A stretch of 64,000 nucleotides of DNA, from assembly GCA_949292205.1 (NCBI GenBank), contig CASEYR010000002.1, positions 1 through 64,000 of the forward strand, in the 5' to 3' direction. The notes under the pieces were generated by a model that did no database searches, had not been told where the DNA came from, and saw only the letters and a program-made list of their open reading frames with translations. Origin of the DNA: an uncultured Alphaproteobacteria bacterium (lineage in GTDB: Bacteria; Pseudomonadota; Alphaproteobacteria; CAAHEQ01; UBA3637). Positions 24,821-64,000 of the stretch are shown here, piece after piece. The position numbers were made by a program, and so were the translations under genes. Each line of letters starts with the position of its first letter. Positions within the stretch are counted from its first letter, which is position 1.

Positions 24821-25294
24821 ATGAAGCAAATTGAAATGTTTACGGACGGTGCCTGTTCCGGAAACCCCGGTCCCGGAGGCTGGGGGTGTATTTTACGCTA
24901 TCGGGGACGGGAAAAAGAACTCTCCGGCGGTGCTTTGAAAACAACGAACAATCGGATGGAAATGACAGCGGTTATTCAAGGCTTAAAACAGCTGAAAGAA
25001 CCGTGCTCCGTTCGGTTAATGACGGATAGCAAATATGTTTTAGAAGGTGTAACCAAGTGGATGTCCGGTTGGATAGCCAACGGATGGCGGCGAGCAGATA
25101 AAAAGCCTGTCTTGAACGTTGATTTATGGCAAGAGTTAGCAGATTTATTATCACGACATCACGTCGAGTGGCTTTGGATTAAAGGGCACGCCGGACATCC
25201 TGAAAATGAACGAGCCGATGCATTAGCCGTTTTGCAACGAGATTTATTTAAGTCGCATCAGCAGTCACAGTCTGACTTGGCAACCGATCTATAA
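24821..25294 (+). CDS. rnhA: Ribonuclease HI
   Basis: A 157-residue endonuclease that degrades RNA in RNA-DNA hybrids. Catalytic residues are in place: Asp in [15 protein letters not shown], Glu in [13 protein letters not shown], Asp in LMTDSKYV and the final Asp in [12 protein letters not shown]. The basic helix [16 protein letters not shown] is the usual substrate handle. It follows gatB by 17 bases. Its last 47 bases overlap the 3' end of the convergent gene at 25248-26999, so both transcripts must read through each other. Confidence 0.95.
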
Positions 25295-26999
25295 ACCAGA
25301 GTAAGTTTTTCAACGTCATCGGTTGAGGCAGAACAACCTCACGTCCGTCCGCATAAACCAAGACATATAGTGGCAGTTGATTTGTTTCGGCATGTTGTAT
25401 TAACTGCTGAGCTTGTTGAGAACGACTATCCAACCGTAATACGGATACATTCTTTTTTTTTAAAAGCTCTTTCAAAACATCATCATTCAAAACAAACAAG
25501 GTATCAAAAGAACACCGCAGACAGACAGGCTCATTAATTTGTATTAAAGTTAGCTGGTTACTTGATTGATTAGACCTATCTGTCGGCAAAAAATAATATC
25601 CGATTAATCCCAACAAAAGCCATCCTGATAACATCAGATACGGCAAACGAATAATAATGGCATAAGCGAGATTGGATTCCTTTCGGATTTGCTTAAAGAA
25701 GTTTAAAATTGAGGAAGCCTTTTCATAAAAGAGTTGAAGCGGGATCATTAAACAAGCTCCCCAATAAATAATCAGGATCAATCGGGATGACCAAGCAATT
25801 TCAGACAAGACATCCCAAAAAGGTTTTGGCAGTATCACAAACAAGACAACAGCCCCCCAAACAGAAGGAACGGGACGATACAGCAGAAAGAACAATAAAG
25901 GCAACAACACCCAAGAAGCTATCGGATACCGAATCAACTCGGACGGGAACAATCCCGATAACCACAAGATTCCCAAAAGAAACAAAGATACAACAGCACT
26001 TCTCTGATATAATTTGATTAACGATTTATACGCCCCCGAATTTAGTTGATGTGGGAAAAGCCAGAAGGACCAAAACGGAGACATTAAAAACACCAAAAAA
26101 CCGGAAAGTAAAGCCACGCCAACAGGTAAGGGAGTCGGCAACAACGGTAAGGGGTGTGCTTCAATCGGAATCTCTATCAGATAAGAAGATTTGTTTGTTT
26201 TTGCCAAAACCGGTATTTTACCTCCCTCCTTCAAGATATTATTATCAACAGGAATAACGGTAAAAGCCACCTGATGACCACTCAATCGCATCTGAGTAAT
26301 TGTTGCTTTTTGTATAGCCAAGGGCTGTATTAAAGCATAAGATATTTTTTCCGGAAAAAATAATTGAACACGCAACGTATTGTCCGAACGCAAATAACTG
26401 CGAGCCGATACATTCATTCGTTCGGCCGGCAAAGCCACAGTCTGTAATTCCGTTTGCAGTCGTCCACACCACCCTGTCGGATACCCCTTATCCGGTGTTA
26501 AATGAAGACTATCTGCCACACTTTTAACCTGACACGTTCCGTTTTTGGAACAAACCGTCAAAGTTGCAATCCAATTAAAATCAAAAGCATTCATTTGGGG
26601 GGGGATATTCAAAACAACCGGAATAACAACATCTCCCGTATAATCCGCAGTCCAGCTATCATCAACAGAAACAGCAGGCTTTAACGGAATCAAAGGAATT
26701 GCCTCAATCAAACTCGGTGTTTGGATATCCACCTGATAATTTTTCAAAATCCAACCCTTATTCAAAGAGATATTGATGCCGGTCAATAACGCATTCGCCC
26801 GTTTAAAACCGGTTCGGCAAGAAAGCGTACGTATTTTTCCGAAAGAAAAAAGTTGCTCTTGAGAGATTCCAAGAGAAGCCTCTTTTAATGTTGTTTTAAA
26901 ATCCTCTGAAATAGCAGACCAAGGGGAAGCAAAACCTTGAACCGAACAGATGACAAGCAGACAACAAAGAACATACCCGACTATAAAAAAACGTTTCAT
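25248..26999 (-). CDS. DsbD/ScsB-like membrane protein with degenerate redox centre
   Basis: A 583-residue protein with the architecture of protein-disulfide reductases of the DsbD/ScsB family. A signal peptide is followed by a periplasmic N-terminal domain of about 270 residues with a cysteine pair in [12 protein letters not shown], then about six membrane segments (residues about 290-470) and a C-terminal thioredoxin-like domain with CLRC. The transmembrane cysteine that normally sits in the first helix (PC motif in DsbD) is replaced by SPFWSFW, and I find only one Cys in the membrane region (WGACLMIP). Electron relay across the membrane as in DsbD is therefore doubtful; it may have kept only the periplasmic thiol domains. 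Convergent with rnhA. Confidence 0.65.
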
Positions 27000-27815: not shown

Positions 27816-29369
27816 TTATTGTGCTGAACAGAGCCCATTATTCCACCGTCCACCACATGCCTCACATATTTCTTGGGTATTTAAAACTGGCGAGGCTAAA
27901 TTCTTCGGACAGATGTTGCAATACTCCTCTTTTTTAAACCGCTTATCTGCACCGGCACAAGCCTCTGAGCATAAACCTTTATCACCGACATAAATTCCAT
28001 TTTTAGTATCACATGGATAGCATGTTCCATCAAATGATACGATACCGTTACATTTTTCCAGGACACAATAGGCACCATCTACGAAACGGTTAGGACAATT
28101 TTCATCACATGTTCCACCATACCAAATCATATCAATGTAAATCTTTTCTGGGGTATCACATGGATAACAAGTTTTTTTCTCAGCATCAATAAAACCACTA
28201 CAATACTCATTTTTTAAAATACAATAATCATTTCCACGCCCGCCTTTTTCGCGGAGAGCGCTACATTTACTACAATCATCTACGGTAGCCTCAATTCCCT
28301 CTGGTGTATTACACGGATGACAGCCACCAGTCTTATCCCTAAATCCATTACACGTTTCCAAAACACAATAATTTCCTTTTTTCTCTCGCTTATATCCACT
28401 TTCCTCGCAGGCTTTTTCACACGTTCCACCAGCATCAAGCCAAATTCCCTCCGGTGTATCGCACGGATAGCATGTACCAAGAGTAGAGGATGTGATAAAC
28501 CCATCACAAGCCTCCTCTTTCAAAGAACAGTGTGACTCAGGATATAAATTCCCCATCCAAATCACCTCTCTTTTATCACCACAGTTATCTTCACATTCTG
28601 CGACATTTGTGACCTGAATAGGAGCATTTGTATCACAAGAAAAACAAAATCCTGAGGTATCTCGGAATCCACTTGGACACGGTGTTACACAATAATCATT
28701 CCATAACTCTCTATTAGAGCATATAGACTTACATAGGTCCCCATTAGAAACTTTAATAGGTGTCGTATCATCACACAGCGCACACTCCCCCAACTCATTA
28801 CAAATAATATTATTTTCAGGAGCAGTTAGATCTATATCCTCTGGGGGATTTCCTCCTCCCTCCTCACCCTCACCGACAGATCCATCCTCCAAGTCATTCG
28901 CAAAAGCAAACAAGATATCATTCGTGTCATTTGGACATTCGCTTAAATCATCTATATCTTGTCCGTCAACACTTTCCCAAACGGCGAAAGGCAAGTAATC
29001 AGCTATCATGCGATCACAAATCCCTTTTGGAATATCTAGAACCGTCAACGTAAAATATCCAGAATTCCCGTCATGATTATCCGCCGAAACAATATCATAC
29101 ACTCCGATAATTTTTCCATTATTTTCATACTCAGAAAAAGAAATTTCTTTACCGAATACACGTTGTTGACTGACGGTAATGGCACGCTTCCGAACTTCGT
29201 TCAGAATCTCGTTCGCATTATATTTATCCATCGCATACCGATAGCCCGCTATCCCCCCGATTGCCAACACACCCATAATCGCCAGAACACCCAGCATTTC
29301 TACCATACTGCGTCCTCTTTCGTTTTCTATCTCATTTTCTTTTAACCTGTTATTCTCTTTTTCCAACAT
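27816..29369 (-). CDS. Pilin-leader surface protein with six cysteine-rich repeats
   Basis: A 517-residue protein in four parts. (1) A charged leader of about 19 residues ending in Gly, then RSMVEMLGVLAIMGVLAIGG: a class III prepilin signal with Gly at -1 and Glu at +5, and a hydrophobic pilin helix. (2) A globular domain to residue 160 with FTLTV, Cys118, Cys145 and LFAF. (3) An acidic Gly/Pro linker. (4) From about residue 190 six repeats of 45-50 residues, each built on a C-x2-C-D/N-T core (CYPCDTPEGI type), a C..C pair and YCxLxxCNGF, plus a partial seventh at the C-terminus. Expected at the cell surface as a minor pilin or pseudopilin with a disulfide-rich stalk. Start ATG 29369 has GAGGAG six bases upstream; an in-frame start 66 bases earlier lacks one. 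Monocistronic; no pilus assembly genes nearby. Confidence 0.8.
   Translation of the reverse strand: MLEKENNRLKENEIENERGRSMVEMLGVLAIMGVLAIGGIAGYRYAMDKYNANEILNEVRKRAITVSQQRVFGKEISFSEYENNGKIIGVYDIVSADNHDGNSGYFTLTVLDIPKGICDRMIADYLPFAVWESVDGQDIDDLSECPNDTNDILFAFANDLEDGSVGEGEEGGGNPPEDIDLTAPENNIICNELGECALCDDTTPIKVSNGDLCKSICSNRELWNDYCVTPCPSGFRDTSGFCFSCDTNAPIQVTNVAECEDNCGDKREVIWMGNLYPESHCSLKEEACDGFITSSTLGTCYPCDTPEGIWLDAGGTCEKACEESGYKREKKGNYCVLETCNGFRDKTGGCHPCNTPEGIEATVDDCSKCSALREKGGRGNDYCILKNEYCSGFIDAEKKTCYPCDTPEKIYIDMIWYGGTCDENCPNRFVDGAYCVLEKCNGIVSFDGTCYPCDTKNGIYVGDKGLCSEACAGADKRFKKEEYCNICPKNLASPVLNTQEICEACGGRWNNGLCSAQ
27820..28802 (-). repeat. Coding tandem repeats, cysteine-rich module (six units plus partial)
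   Basis: Six diverged units of roughly 135-175 bases inside the pilin-leader gene. Each encodes about six cysteines in the order C-x2-C, C, C, YC, C. The recurring peptide cores are CDDTTPI, CDTNAPI, CDTPEGI, CNTPEGI, CDTPEKI and CDTKNGI. The divergence between units argues for old, selected repeats rather than recent slippage. Confidence 0.75.
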
Positions 29370-29600
29370 GTTTGACTCCTCTAATAATCGTCCTTTTTTA
29401 TAAGCATAAAAGCATTTCAACTTTACCCTTATCATAGATAAAAAATCATTACAAGGCTTTTTTAGGATTTTTTCTATTTTTTGAGTTGCTTTTTAGATGA
29501 TTACTTATTTCTTTATGACATCAACTTTAGTGTAACAATTTAATGTCGCTTATTTTAAATCCATCCTTATAAAAACACACAGCAAACATCAAAATAAGTG

Positions 29601-61338: not shown

Positions 61339-61671
61339 TGGGGATAAATCTATCATATTTTCCTTCATTTTGCAATCCCAAAAAGCATGAAAATTTATCC
61401 ACCGATACCCCCAAAAAAATCATATTAAAAAAATATAATAGAAGTAGTTGGTGATGTTCATAATGGGGATAACTTTTTTATTTTTTTCTTGACATGATTT
61501 TTAATTTTTAACGACTCGGCGTTTTTATTGTTTTTTTCTGACGAAGAGGTCTTTTTTTGAAAGCGAATTTTGAACTTATTTCCTGTGTATATTTTTTGAA
61601 TAACTTTGCATAACTTTTCCTTGACAAGCCTTTTTCAGAAAGTTATCCCCATTTTCCACACTTATCCACAA
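61339..61671. other. Candidate chromosomal replication origin (oriC)
   Basis: This is the only gene-free stretch longer than 300 bases (61315-61728). Six DnaA-box-like 9-mers are seen: TTATCCCCA on minus at 61339-61347 and 61464-61472; TTATCCACC on plus at 61395-61403; and a cluster on plus, TTATCCCCA (61643-61651), TTTTCCACA (61652-61660), TTATCCACA (61662-61670). Between them lie very AT-rich stretches (61421-61440; 61471-61515) suitable for unwinding. Genes on both sides point away. rho and dnaQ, known neighbours of alphaproteobacterial origins, are close. No CtrA box was found inside it. Confidence 0.5.
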
Positions 61672-62905: not shown

Positions 62906-64000
62906 TCAATCACATAAAACATTTGCTCTAGTGATGTTTTTCTGAAAATGTGCTTGTGCAACTCCTTCAGAGATATTTAAAAAGTAAGCCTGACACGATC
63001 CGTTATCCTTGTCTGTCCAATAGAAATAGCCACCGACTTTATTGTGAAGCTCTACCATCGCCGGAGCGCGATTATAGTTTTCCAATAAACAATCTGTGGC
63101 ATCTTGATCACAGCACAACCACCCGTATTCCTCTGATGTCGGTTCTCCGTTTGTATTGTAACAATTTAATGTTTTTGCATTGATTTTATTTAGTTTTTTG
63201 TCATGAGAAATACACCAATTTTTAGCGCTCCACCATGTCATAGTGGGACCCTTCCAAACATATTTATCGGTTTTACCGTCTCCATTTAAATCTAAAGGAA
63301 TAGCGTTATTTTGATTTTGAGCCTCTCCTTTGTCTCGGCATGTTCCAACACCGAGATGATTACAATCTATTGGATTTTCAAAAGCGCAGTACTTTGATGA
63401 GTCAATTTTTCCATCTGATGTTTTACAATCTTCGTTACGAGTACACTCTCCTTCTGAGGTATAACATTGACTATTTTCTGCTGTTCCGGATGTTGTACAG
63501 ATTTCACCGCTTTGACAACAGATTTCACCACACATTTCCCAGCCGTTGGGACACAGACATCTTCCCGAAGAACAAACAGTTCCATTTGGGCAAACAACAT
63601 CGGCACATCTTGGATCCGGAGGAGGAACATCCTTTAAAGTATTCTCAAAAGCAAAAGTCAAAAGGCTCTCCGTTTCAATGGGGCATTGTGTGTCATCCGT
63701 AACAATAACCTCTCCGACTTTTGTTTCAACAGGTAAGGACCAGTCCATATCTAGCAGAGCATTACAAATTCCCTCGGGAATATGATCAACGGATATAGTA
63801 AAGAATCCTGAATTACCATTGTATTCATTAGCAACCGAGACAAGATGCCTGTTTTGAATCAAGTCAACACCGGCATTTGGATGAAATTCATGTAAGTTAA
63901 TATCCATATTCCGAATACGTTGTTGACTGGCAATAAAGGCTCGTTTTTTAACTTCATTGATAATTTCATTGGCGTTATATCTATCCATAGCCCAGCGATA
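62906..64000 (-). CDS. Pilin-leader surface protein with cysteine-knot and lectin-like C-terminus (5' end cut by window)
   Basis: At least 364 residues; the N-terminus lies beyond the window edge. The visible start YRWAMDRYNANEIINEVKKR matches the region just after the pilin helix of the protein at 27816, so a prepilin signal is expected upstream. The globular domain follows (GFFTISVDHIPEGIC, second Cys 27 residues later, TFAF), then a VPPPDP linker and a compact cysteine-rich segment (CPNGTVCSSGRCLCPNGWEMC, CGEICCQSGEIC). The last 140 residues resemble a C-type-lectin-like fold: MTWWSAKNWCISHDKKL, EEYGWLCC, GGYFYWTDK and a terminal NVLCD. Likely a surface adhesin on a pilus-like scaffold. 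Sugar binding is not shown. Confidence 0.75.
   Translation of the reverse strand, partial: YRWAMDRYNANEIINEVKKRAFIASQQRIRNMDINLHEFHPNAGVDLIQNRHLVSVANEYNGNSGFFTISVDHIPEGICNALLDMDWSLPVETKVGEVIVTDDTQCPIETESLLTFAFENTLKDVPPPDPRCADVVCPNGTVCSSGRCLCPNGWEMCGEICCQSGEICTTSGTAENSQCYTSEGECTRNEDCKTSDGKIDSSKYCAFENPIDCNHLGVGTCRDKGEAQNQNNAIPLDLNGDGKTDKYVWKGPTMTWWSAKNWCISHDKKLNKINAKTLNCYNTNGEPTSEEYGWLCCDQDATDCLLENYNRAPAMVELHNKVGGYFYWTDKDNGSCQAYFLNISEGVAQAHFQKNITRANVLCD

Follow-up and report, generated by a model that had tools for sequence, protein, structure and literature searches.

The window, that is, the whole 64,000-nucleotide stretch of DNA analyzed here, carries on its reverse strand a gene for a protein of 517 residues and 42 cysteines (Table 1). 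The protein runs from a class III signal through a pilin head and a flexible linker to six tandem units of six cysteines each, which occupy residues 199-502 according to a hidden Markov model (HMM) of the unit. Two extra cysteines precede unit 1, two more follow unit 6, and the tail as a whole is more than twice the size of the head. The reading frame is intact; the longest possible frame would begin at 29435, and the ATG used is that at 29369. The leader (residues 1-19) is charged and has Gly19 as its last residue. The +1 residue is Arg, which is unusual in a prepilin. From ORF reading, the neighboring genes resemble housekeeping genes, and no minor-pilin operon is seen around the gene among the ORFs of the window. 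Close to it, at 25248-26999, lies a gene for a 583-aa membrane protein with a C-terminal CxxC, with a gene of the opposite strand, infC-like in appearance, between it and the stalk gene. The 583-aa protein had appeared DsbD-like by eye, a label that we rejected since it has neither Pfam nor PDB support. The lectin-like C-terminus of the second family member in the window is what we take it to be by eye, and it has no Pfam match.

Table 1. Coordinates of the stalk gene, its parts and related features in the window
Position	Strand	Feature	Basis
27816..29369	-	517-aa type IVb pilin-anchored protein with six-unit cysteine-rich stalk	ORF, sequence, 26 own-genome matches
29376..29380	-	AGGAG, likely ribosome-binding site for the ATG at 29369	Read from sequence
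29250..29321	-	Class III prepilin signal and start of hydrophobic helix; Gly19 = -1, Glu24 = +5	Sequence, alignments, model
28881..29315	-	Pilin domain, residues 19-163, with invariant Cys118 and Cys145	AlphaFold, Foldseek, VIA-align, invariant columns
28812..28880	-	Low-confidence linker, about residues 164-186	pLDDT <50 at residues 164-184
28638..28775	-	Stalk unit 1, 46 aa, 6 Cys	Unit HMM
28464..28637	-	Stalk unit 2, 58 aa, 6 Cys	Unit HMM
28314..28463	-	Stalk unit 3, 50 aa, 6 Cys	Unit HMM; part of the model of units 3-5, pLDDT 82
28161..28313	-	Stalk unit 4, 51 aa, 6 Cys	Unit HMM
28014..28160	-	Stalk unit 5, 49 aa, 6 Cys	Unit HMM
27864..28013	-	Stalk unit 6, 50 aa, 6 Cys; match ends at profile position 44 of 46	Unit HMM
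27816..27863	-	C-terminal tail with last two cysteines and stop; paralog tails similar	Alignment A1
29422..29547	-	Upstream segment, 94% identical to that of L061, inverted relative to the gene	blastn, alignment
29532..29548	-	Gene-distal recombination-site-like repeat, 1 mismatch to GGACATTAAATTGTTAC	Pattern search
62906..64000	-	Second family member, cut by the window end, C-type-lectin-like C-terminus, no paired repeat	

Pilin head and pilus assembly locus

Gly19 and Glu24 are invariant in two family alignments (A1 and A4), and Cys118 and Cys145, which may form the bonded pair of a type IVb head, are invariant in 20 sequences. The AlphaFold model of the full-length protein, built on 21 sequences, has a helix at residues 20-71 (mean pLDDT 79.3, pTM 0.48), and the pTM value leaves head and stalk unplaced relative to each other. 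Pfam gives no match to the protein at E 0.01, and the N_methyl match is below threshold (13.7 bits, cut-off 21.2). When the model is searched with Foldseek, the first 13 rows are type IVb pilins (TcpA, the ETEC pilus, CofA and Typhi PilS), with probabilities of 0.25-1.0 and a best E value of 5.9e-3 at probability 1.0. VIA-align 2 lists nothing but pilins or pseudopilins in its top 15 rows, among them the ETEC type IVb pilus (Z 10.2, rmsd 3.4, 138 residues). TcpA, CofA and PilS are type IVb major pilins; CofB of CFA/III (Z 5.0, rmsd 3.7, 116 residues) and TcpB also share the pilin fold. The structural match is limited to about residues 20-163, and the head comes to its end close to residue 160. 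Thus, as modeled, the head is a type IVb pilin fold, and the class III signal and pilin anchor that a preliminary description had read from the DNA are both borne out.

It is also evident that the same genome encodes a type IVb (TCP/R64-like) pilus assembly locus. One contig (C4) holds matches to TcpQ (E 1.7e-17), secretin (1.8e-9), PilO (2.7e-27), T2SSE (2.8e-69) and T2SSF (8e-25), and the genes stand in a row as TcpQ, secretin, PilO, a PilQ-type ATPase and a PilR-type protein, which resembles the R64 order PilL-N-O-P-Q-R. Inspection by eye of ORFs around C4 brought up no recognizable prepilin peptidase. The family also includes short pilins (134-151 aa) that carry the same signal and lack a tail, and these could be the filament subunits. 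A VirB11-like ATPase with a T2SSE match is encoded elsewhere in the genome (C10, L078:3135-7613), among neighbors that look type IV secretion-like by eye.

The cysteine-rich stalk unit

Because the unit HMM was trained partly on the six window units, its score has to be read against shuffled sequences. The window stalk scores 164.2 bits, 500 full shuffles reach at most -9.6 bits, and 500 shuffles with the cysteines held fixed reach at most 18.9 bits. A profile made from the six window units alone detects the unit 125 times in 31 of the 143 collected proteins, the window's own 6 copies included, which shows it to be a genuine repeated module. The full profile finds 237 copies in 45 of these proteins, which amount to 44 distinct genes since L012 and L061 are one gene; contig ends cut 19 of the 143 proteins. 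Over the 237 copies the consensus is C-D-x4-I-x-V ... C-x(2-3)-C-(P)-N-R ... C-x(3)-C ... C, with median cysteine gaps of 14, 2, 10, 3 and 11. The third cysteine is followed in 98% of copies by an arginine, and no histidine is conserved.

The preliminary description had counted six cysteine-rich units of 45-50 residues around a CDTPEGI-type core and had assigned them to no named domain. The number of units and the six cysteines in each agree with the HMM, the lengths as measured are 46-58 residues, and only two of the six units have the core (CDTPEGI or CNTPEGI). The absence of a named domain holds up as well: the unit has no match in Pfam, NCBIfam or PDB entries, the PDB sequence search with the unit profile gives nothing better than E 0.06, and the EGF, furin or TNFR-type match that the description itself had named as contrary evidence was looked for by profile and not found. 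We therefore rejected assignment of the unit to a named domain. The preliminary description had also proposed a rigid disulfide rod displayed from a pilus tip or the inner membrane; this rod is putative in its rigidity (full-length model pTM 0.48), in its disulfide pairing and in its place at a tip.

Named modules do occur in the same proteins. Among 41 unit-bearing proteins, Pfam detects EGF_Teneurin in 5, EGF_2 in 4, TNFR_ELAPOR1 in 2, and Ephrin_rec_like and Mucin2_WxxW in 1 each. In single Pfam scans of 10 of the 41, 11 module hits could be placed, in five relatives; 10 lie outside the units and 1 overlaps in part (EGF_Teneurin in L044). A model of units 3-5 (pLDDT 82, pTM 0.70) has no Foldseek match at E 0.001, and its weak rows include EGF proteins at E 0.49 and worse. 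The VIA search with this model returned no rows of any class. Judging from sequence, the unit is probably a lineage-restricted domain type, with its cysteines putatively joined in disulfides.

A large pilin family with different tails

The genome has 26 places that match the whole window protein and 22 that match its head; it holds at least 20 such pilins with the head in common and with different tails. Eight of its genes carry the cysteine unit after removal of duplicates. Head-matching pilin genes are present in all 33 sampled genomes of the same bacterial family (7 to at least 62 copies each). Outside the family they occur in 2 of 24 genomes, with 1 and 3 copies, and the other 22 have none. 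The stalk is similarly restricted: the stalk query matches 16 of 57 sampled relatives, all within one bacterial family, and among 398 genomes of the phylum the unit profile is found in one, the genome under study. Searches with tblastn found no stalk match in 50,697 phage records or in 72,556 plasmid records, and an origin of the stalk from either source was rejected on this ground.

Across the family, the tails include the cysteine unit, lectin-like ends and EGF-like modules. The relative loci named here are the best 80 of 402, and with one exception these 80 are titled as Alphaproteobacteria metagenome-assembled genomes (MAGs), many from rumen, rectum or cecum. Four family genes lie in L104, on a contig titled as an Akkermansia MAG, which is probably misbinned. 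One unit-bearing member (L030:790-2484) ends in Mucin2_WxxW (residues 470-558, Pfam E 1.2e-27), a domain of animal mucins, and mucus interaction or mimicry is a possible role. Another signal-bearing protein (L093:148-5685) has 1833 mature residues with 256 cysteines in the tail.

Inverted repeats upstream of family genes

Alignment of the upstream regions shows a segment flanked by inverted copies of GGACATTAAATTGTTAC. Searching the genome with this pattern at up to 3 mismatches gives 32 hits, versus 5 for the reversed control pattern. At up to 2 mismatches there are 16 hits, 12 of which precede family genes; 2 more fall within such a segment at contig ends, and the other 2 are elsewhere. The sites are built alike, of two arms with a 6-bp core between them, and most cores have the form GGNNCN. 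Seven repeat pairs were found, before L054, L057, L058, L059, L060 and L061 and before the gene cut at the end of contig C14. Single sites precede the window gene, L050 and L065; L056 has the proximal double site only, L055 has one site with 4 mismatches, and no repeat site is found before L068 or the short pilins.

Inverted repeats of any sequence were also counted. The family set comprised 109 distinct 330-bp upstream regions (from 124 signal-bearing proteins), and the control set comprised 341 upstream regions of other genes, taken from the window and from the named loci. Allowing no more than 1 mismatch, 21 of the 109 family regions contain a 16-bp inverted repeat, as do 2 of the 341 control regions and 2 of 330 shuffles. 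The comparison of family and control gives P = 3.9e-12 (Fisher's exact test), in a test that ignores kinship, and related paralogs are non-independent events. The 21 positives include the window gene by way of an AT-rich repeat other than the GGACATTAAATTGTTAC-type site, which we do not count as support, and 88 of the 109 family regions fail this strict test. A pair of 16-bp inverted repeats (164 bp apart, 1 mismatch) also lies in the window at 61460-61655, upstream of non-family genes.

Opposite orientations of the upstream segment

The inner segment of the window gene aligns with that of L061 far better when inverted (score 194) than directly (31), and the same is true for L050 against L061 (204 and 34). 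Within one MAG, the 99-bp inner segments of L079 and L084 score 15 in direct and 148 in inverted alignment; a promoter of the form TTGACA-17-TAAAAA is directed toward the gene in L079 but away from it in L084. Inversion is also favored for L088/L107 and L123/L145, and contig C15 starts in a segment that is inverted, by eye, relative to the L054 group. These results show that both orientations of the segment occur among paralogs. No clear sigma-70 promoter is seen in the segment of the window gene, nor in that of L054. It is worth noting that the window gene has no gene-proximal partner repeat at up to 4 mismatches and stands outside the genes with paired repeats; lacking a second repeat, it may be locked in one orientation.

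Two divergent pairs of short pilins, each with one intergenic region, were found at L108:8933-10206 and L099:772-2172. We rejected them as evidence of opposite orientations, since the two genes of a pair share the intergenic segment and opposite orientation is trivial. The intergenic region of L108 holds a pair of 16-bp inverted repeats, and a flip there could switch between the two pilins.

Candidate invertases and a retroelement

Three small serine recombinases of the genome belong to the master DNA invertase Mpi family of NCBIfam (295.6, 272.7 and 259.6 bits; the cut-off of 272 is passed by two). Strong members (E <1e-60) are present in 25 of the 33 genomes of the bacterial family and in none of the 24 others; the remaining 8 of the 33 have no strong match. 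The most likely cause of the opposite orientations is a DNA invertase, for which the Mpi-family recombinases are the best candidates. Since two arms around a 6-bp core would suit a tyrosine recombinase too, this assignment is one that we infer. A short tyrosine recombinase (L198) was rejected as the invertase because it is present in none of 32 family relatives.

The genome also carries a diversity-generating retroelement (DGR) with a reverse transcriptase ORF (L075:2838-4954; contig C1, about 196.3-198.5 kb). Its 109-bp template differs from the inverted target copy at 11 positions, all of them adenines in the template. A secreted, lectin-like ORF of 126 aa is the target, and a 500-aa pilin-signal gene lies directly upstream. 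Diversification of the window gene by the DGR was rejected, since among the regions examined the template matched only the 126-aa ORF. DGR-like tips in L080-L083 were dropped as well, as the last 130 bp of these genes are about as divergent as the gene middles.

Discussion

Taken together, we consider it probable (about 0.68) that the window gene encodes a minor pilin of type IVb whose stalk of cysteine units is specific to the lineage, and that it is one of a large, partly phase-variable adhesin repertoire. The preliminary description had overlooked the very large gene family, the type IVb nature of the pilin and the invertible-looking promoters of the family. After cleavage behind Gly19, the pilin head would anchor the protein in the inner membrane and then in the pilus of the TCP/R64-like machine. 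The stalk would be oxidized in the periplasm, and its disulfide-bonded units would hold an adhesive, binding surface away from the filament, in the manner of the large tip minor pilins of related pili. A DNA invertase, presumably of the Mpi family, would actively flip short segments before many, though not all, of the family genes, so that cells of one population would display different subsets of tails on their surface.

Two alternatives concern the gene as a whole. The copies could be mainly a recombination reservoir, with the window copy a donor or a mosaic product of stalk exchange among paralogs. Over 431 bp of its 5′ region the window gene shares 92.8% identity with L050, and other parts of the pilin that align with L050 and L052 do so at 71.5-73.5%; L051, L052 and L053 have 3′ ends that are 93-96% identical over 117-209 bp and divergent middles, and many family copies sit at contig ends. 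However, assembly breaks in near-identical 5′ regions also explain the copies at contig ends, and the window gene has an intact frame with its own start and its own ribosome-binding site; we regard a mere reservoir as unlikely. The protein might instead be a membrane-anchored, pilin-like surface protein outside any filament, either a pseudopilin or an inner-membrane anchored periplasmic stalk, as would fit its long tail, the sub-threshold N_methyl score, the housekeeping-like neighbors and the lack of a minor-pilin operon. The match to the type IVb fold, the type IVb assembly locus and the tail-less short pilins available as filament all speak for a place in a pilus, and make this second alternative quite unlikely.

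The other two alternatives concern the unit. Furin-like, EGF and TNFR repeats are small tandem cysteine-rich modules as well, and the unit could be a far-diverged member of one of these classes instead of a new domain type. Its cysteine order (CxxC ... C-x(2-3)-C ... C-x(3)-C) resembles the cysteine spacing of furin-like repeats, true EGF and ephrin-receptor-type modules are present in sister proteins, and Foldseek lists EGF rows, weak as they are (E ≥0.49). Yet the window units have no Pfam match, nearly all the placed modules (10 of 11) lie outside units, and the near-invariant arginine after the third cysteine sets the unit apart from these repeats. None of 553 chains reached Z 2 with the three-unit model, an empty list that speaks neither for nor against any fold class. 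We find such a distant kinship doubtful. That the cysteines bind a metal such as zinc or iron instead of forming disulfides is highly improbable: the many CxxC pairs and one DZR_2 (double zinc ribbon) match among 41 members (E 0.0018) would suit a metal site, but the protein is exported, the unit has no conserved histidine, and EGF and mucin-type WxxW modules, which are disulfide domains, lie beside the units.

The single parts of this reading have counterparts in known systems. Minor pilins of the CofB/TcpB type carry a large C-terminal extension on the pilin head and sit at the filament tip, generally one per system and each with its own tail, whereas a single genome here has 7 to at least 62 pilin genes, whose tails differ. 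The thin pili of R64 and TP114, with their shufflon, are like the pilus proposed here in being of type IVb and in having variable tails. The PilV tails are swapped within one gene by a tyrosine shufflase; in contrast, the genes here are separate and the putative inverting piece lies upstream. In TP114, PilV is reported to be a type IVb minor pilin with a variable C-terminal adhesin and variation linked to DNA inversion (PMC9045228). In Bacteroides fragilis, Mpi is reported as a master serine invertase that inverts 13 regions (PMC4747536). Multiple repeat-flanked promoters together with a master serine invertase would be common to that system and this family; here the host is an alphaproteobacterium and the genes are those of type IVb pilins, not capsule loci.

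A more far-reaching reading, for and against which we see about even odds, is a genome-wide combinatorial switch, in which Mpi-type promoter inversion toggles dozens of type IVb pilin adhesins and the unit is a new extracellular domain of the lineage. If so, each cell would have its own set of pilus tips, with cysteine-unit, lectin-like, EGF and mucin WxxW-type tails as interchangeable parts. The kinds of components (tip minor pilins, PilV tails and Mpi promoters) are known; their combination, its scale and the unit were not found in the openly licensed PMC literature. In that literature we likewise found no paper on the pilin family, the cysteine unit or invertible pilin promoters of Alphaproteobacteria, though one may exist.

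Knowledge of small-genome gut Alphaproteobacteria comes mostly from MAGs, and the proposed repertoire would bear on the question of how they attach to hosts, mucus or other cells. For structural work, the stalk unit is a new and compact module rich in cysteine. For genomes of only 0.9-1.8 Mb, a set of 7 to at least 62 pilin genes, partly controlled by invertible promoters, would be a major investment in surface variation.
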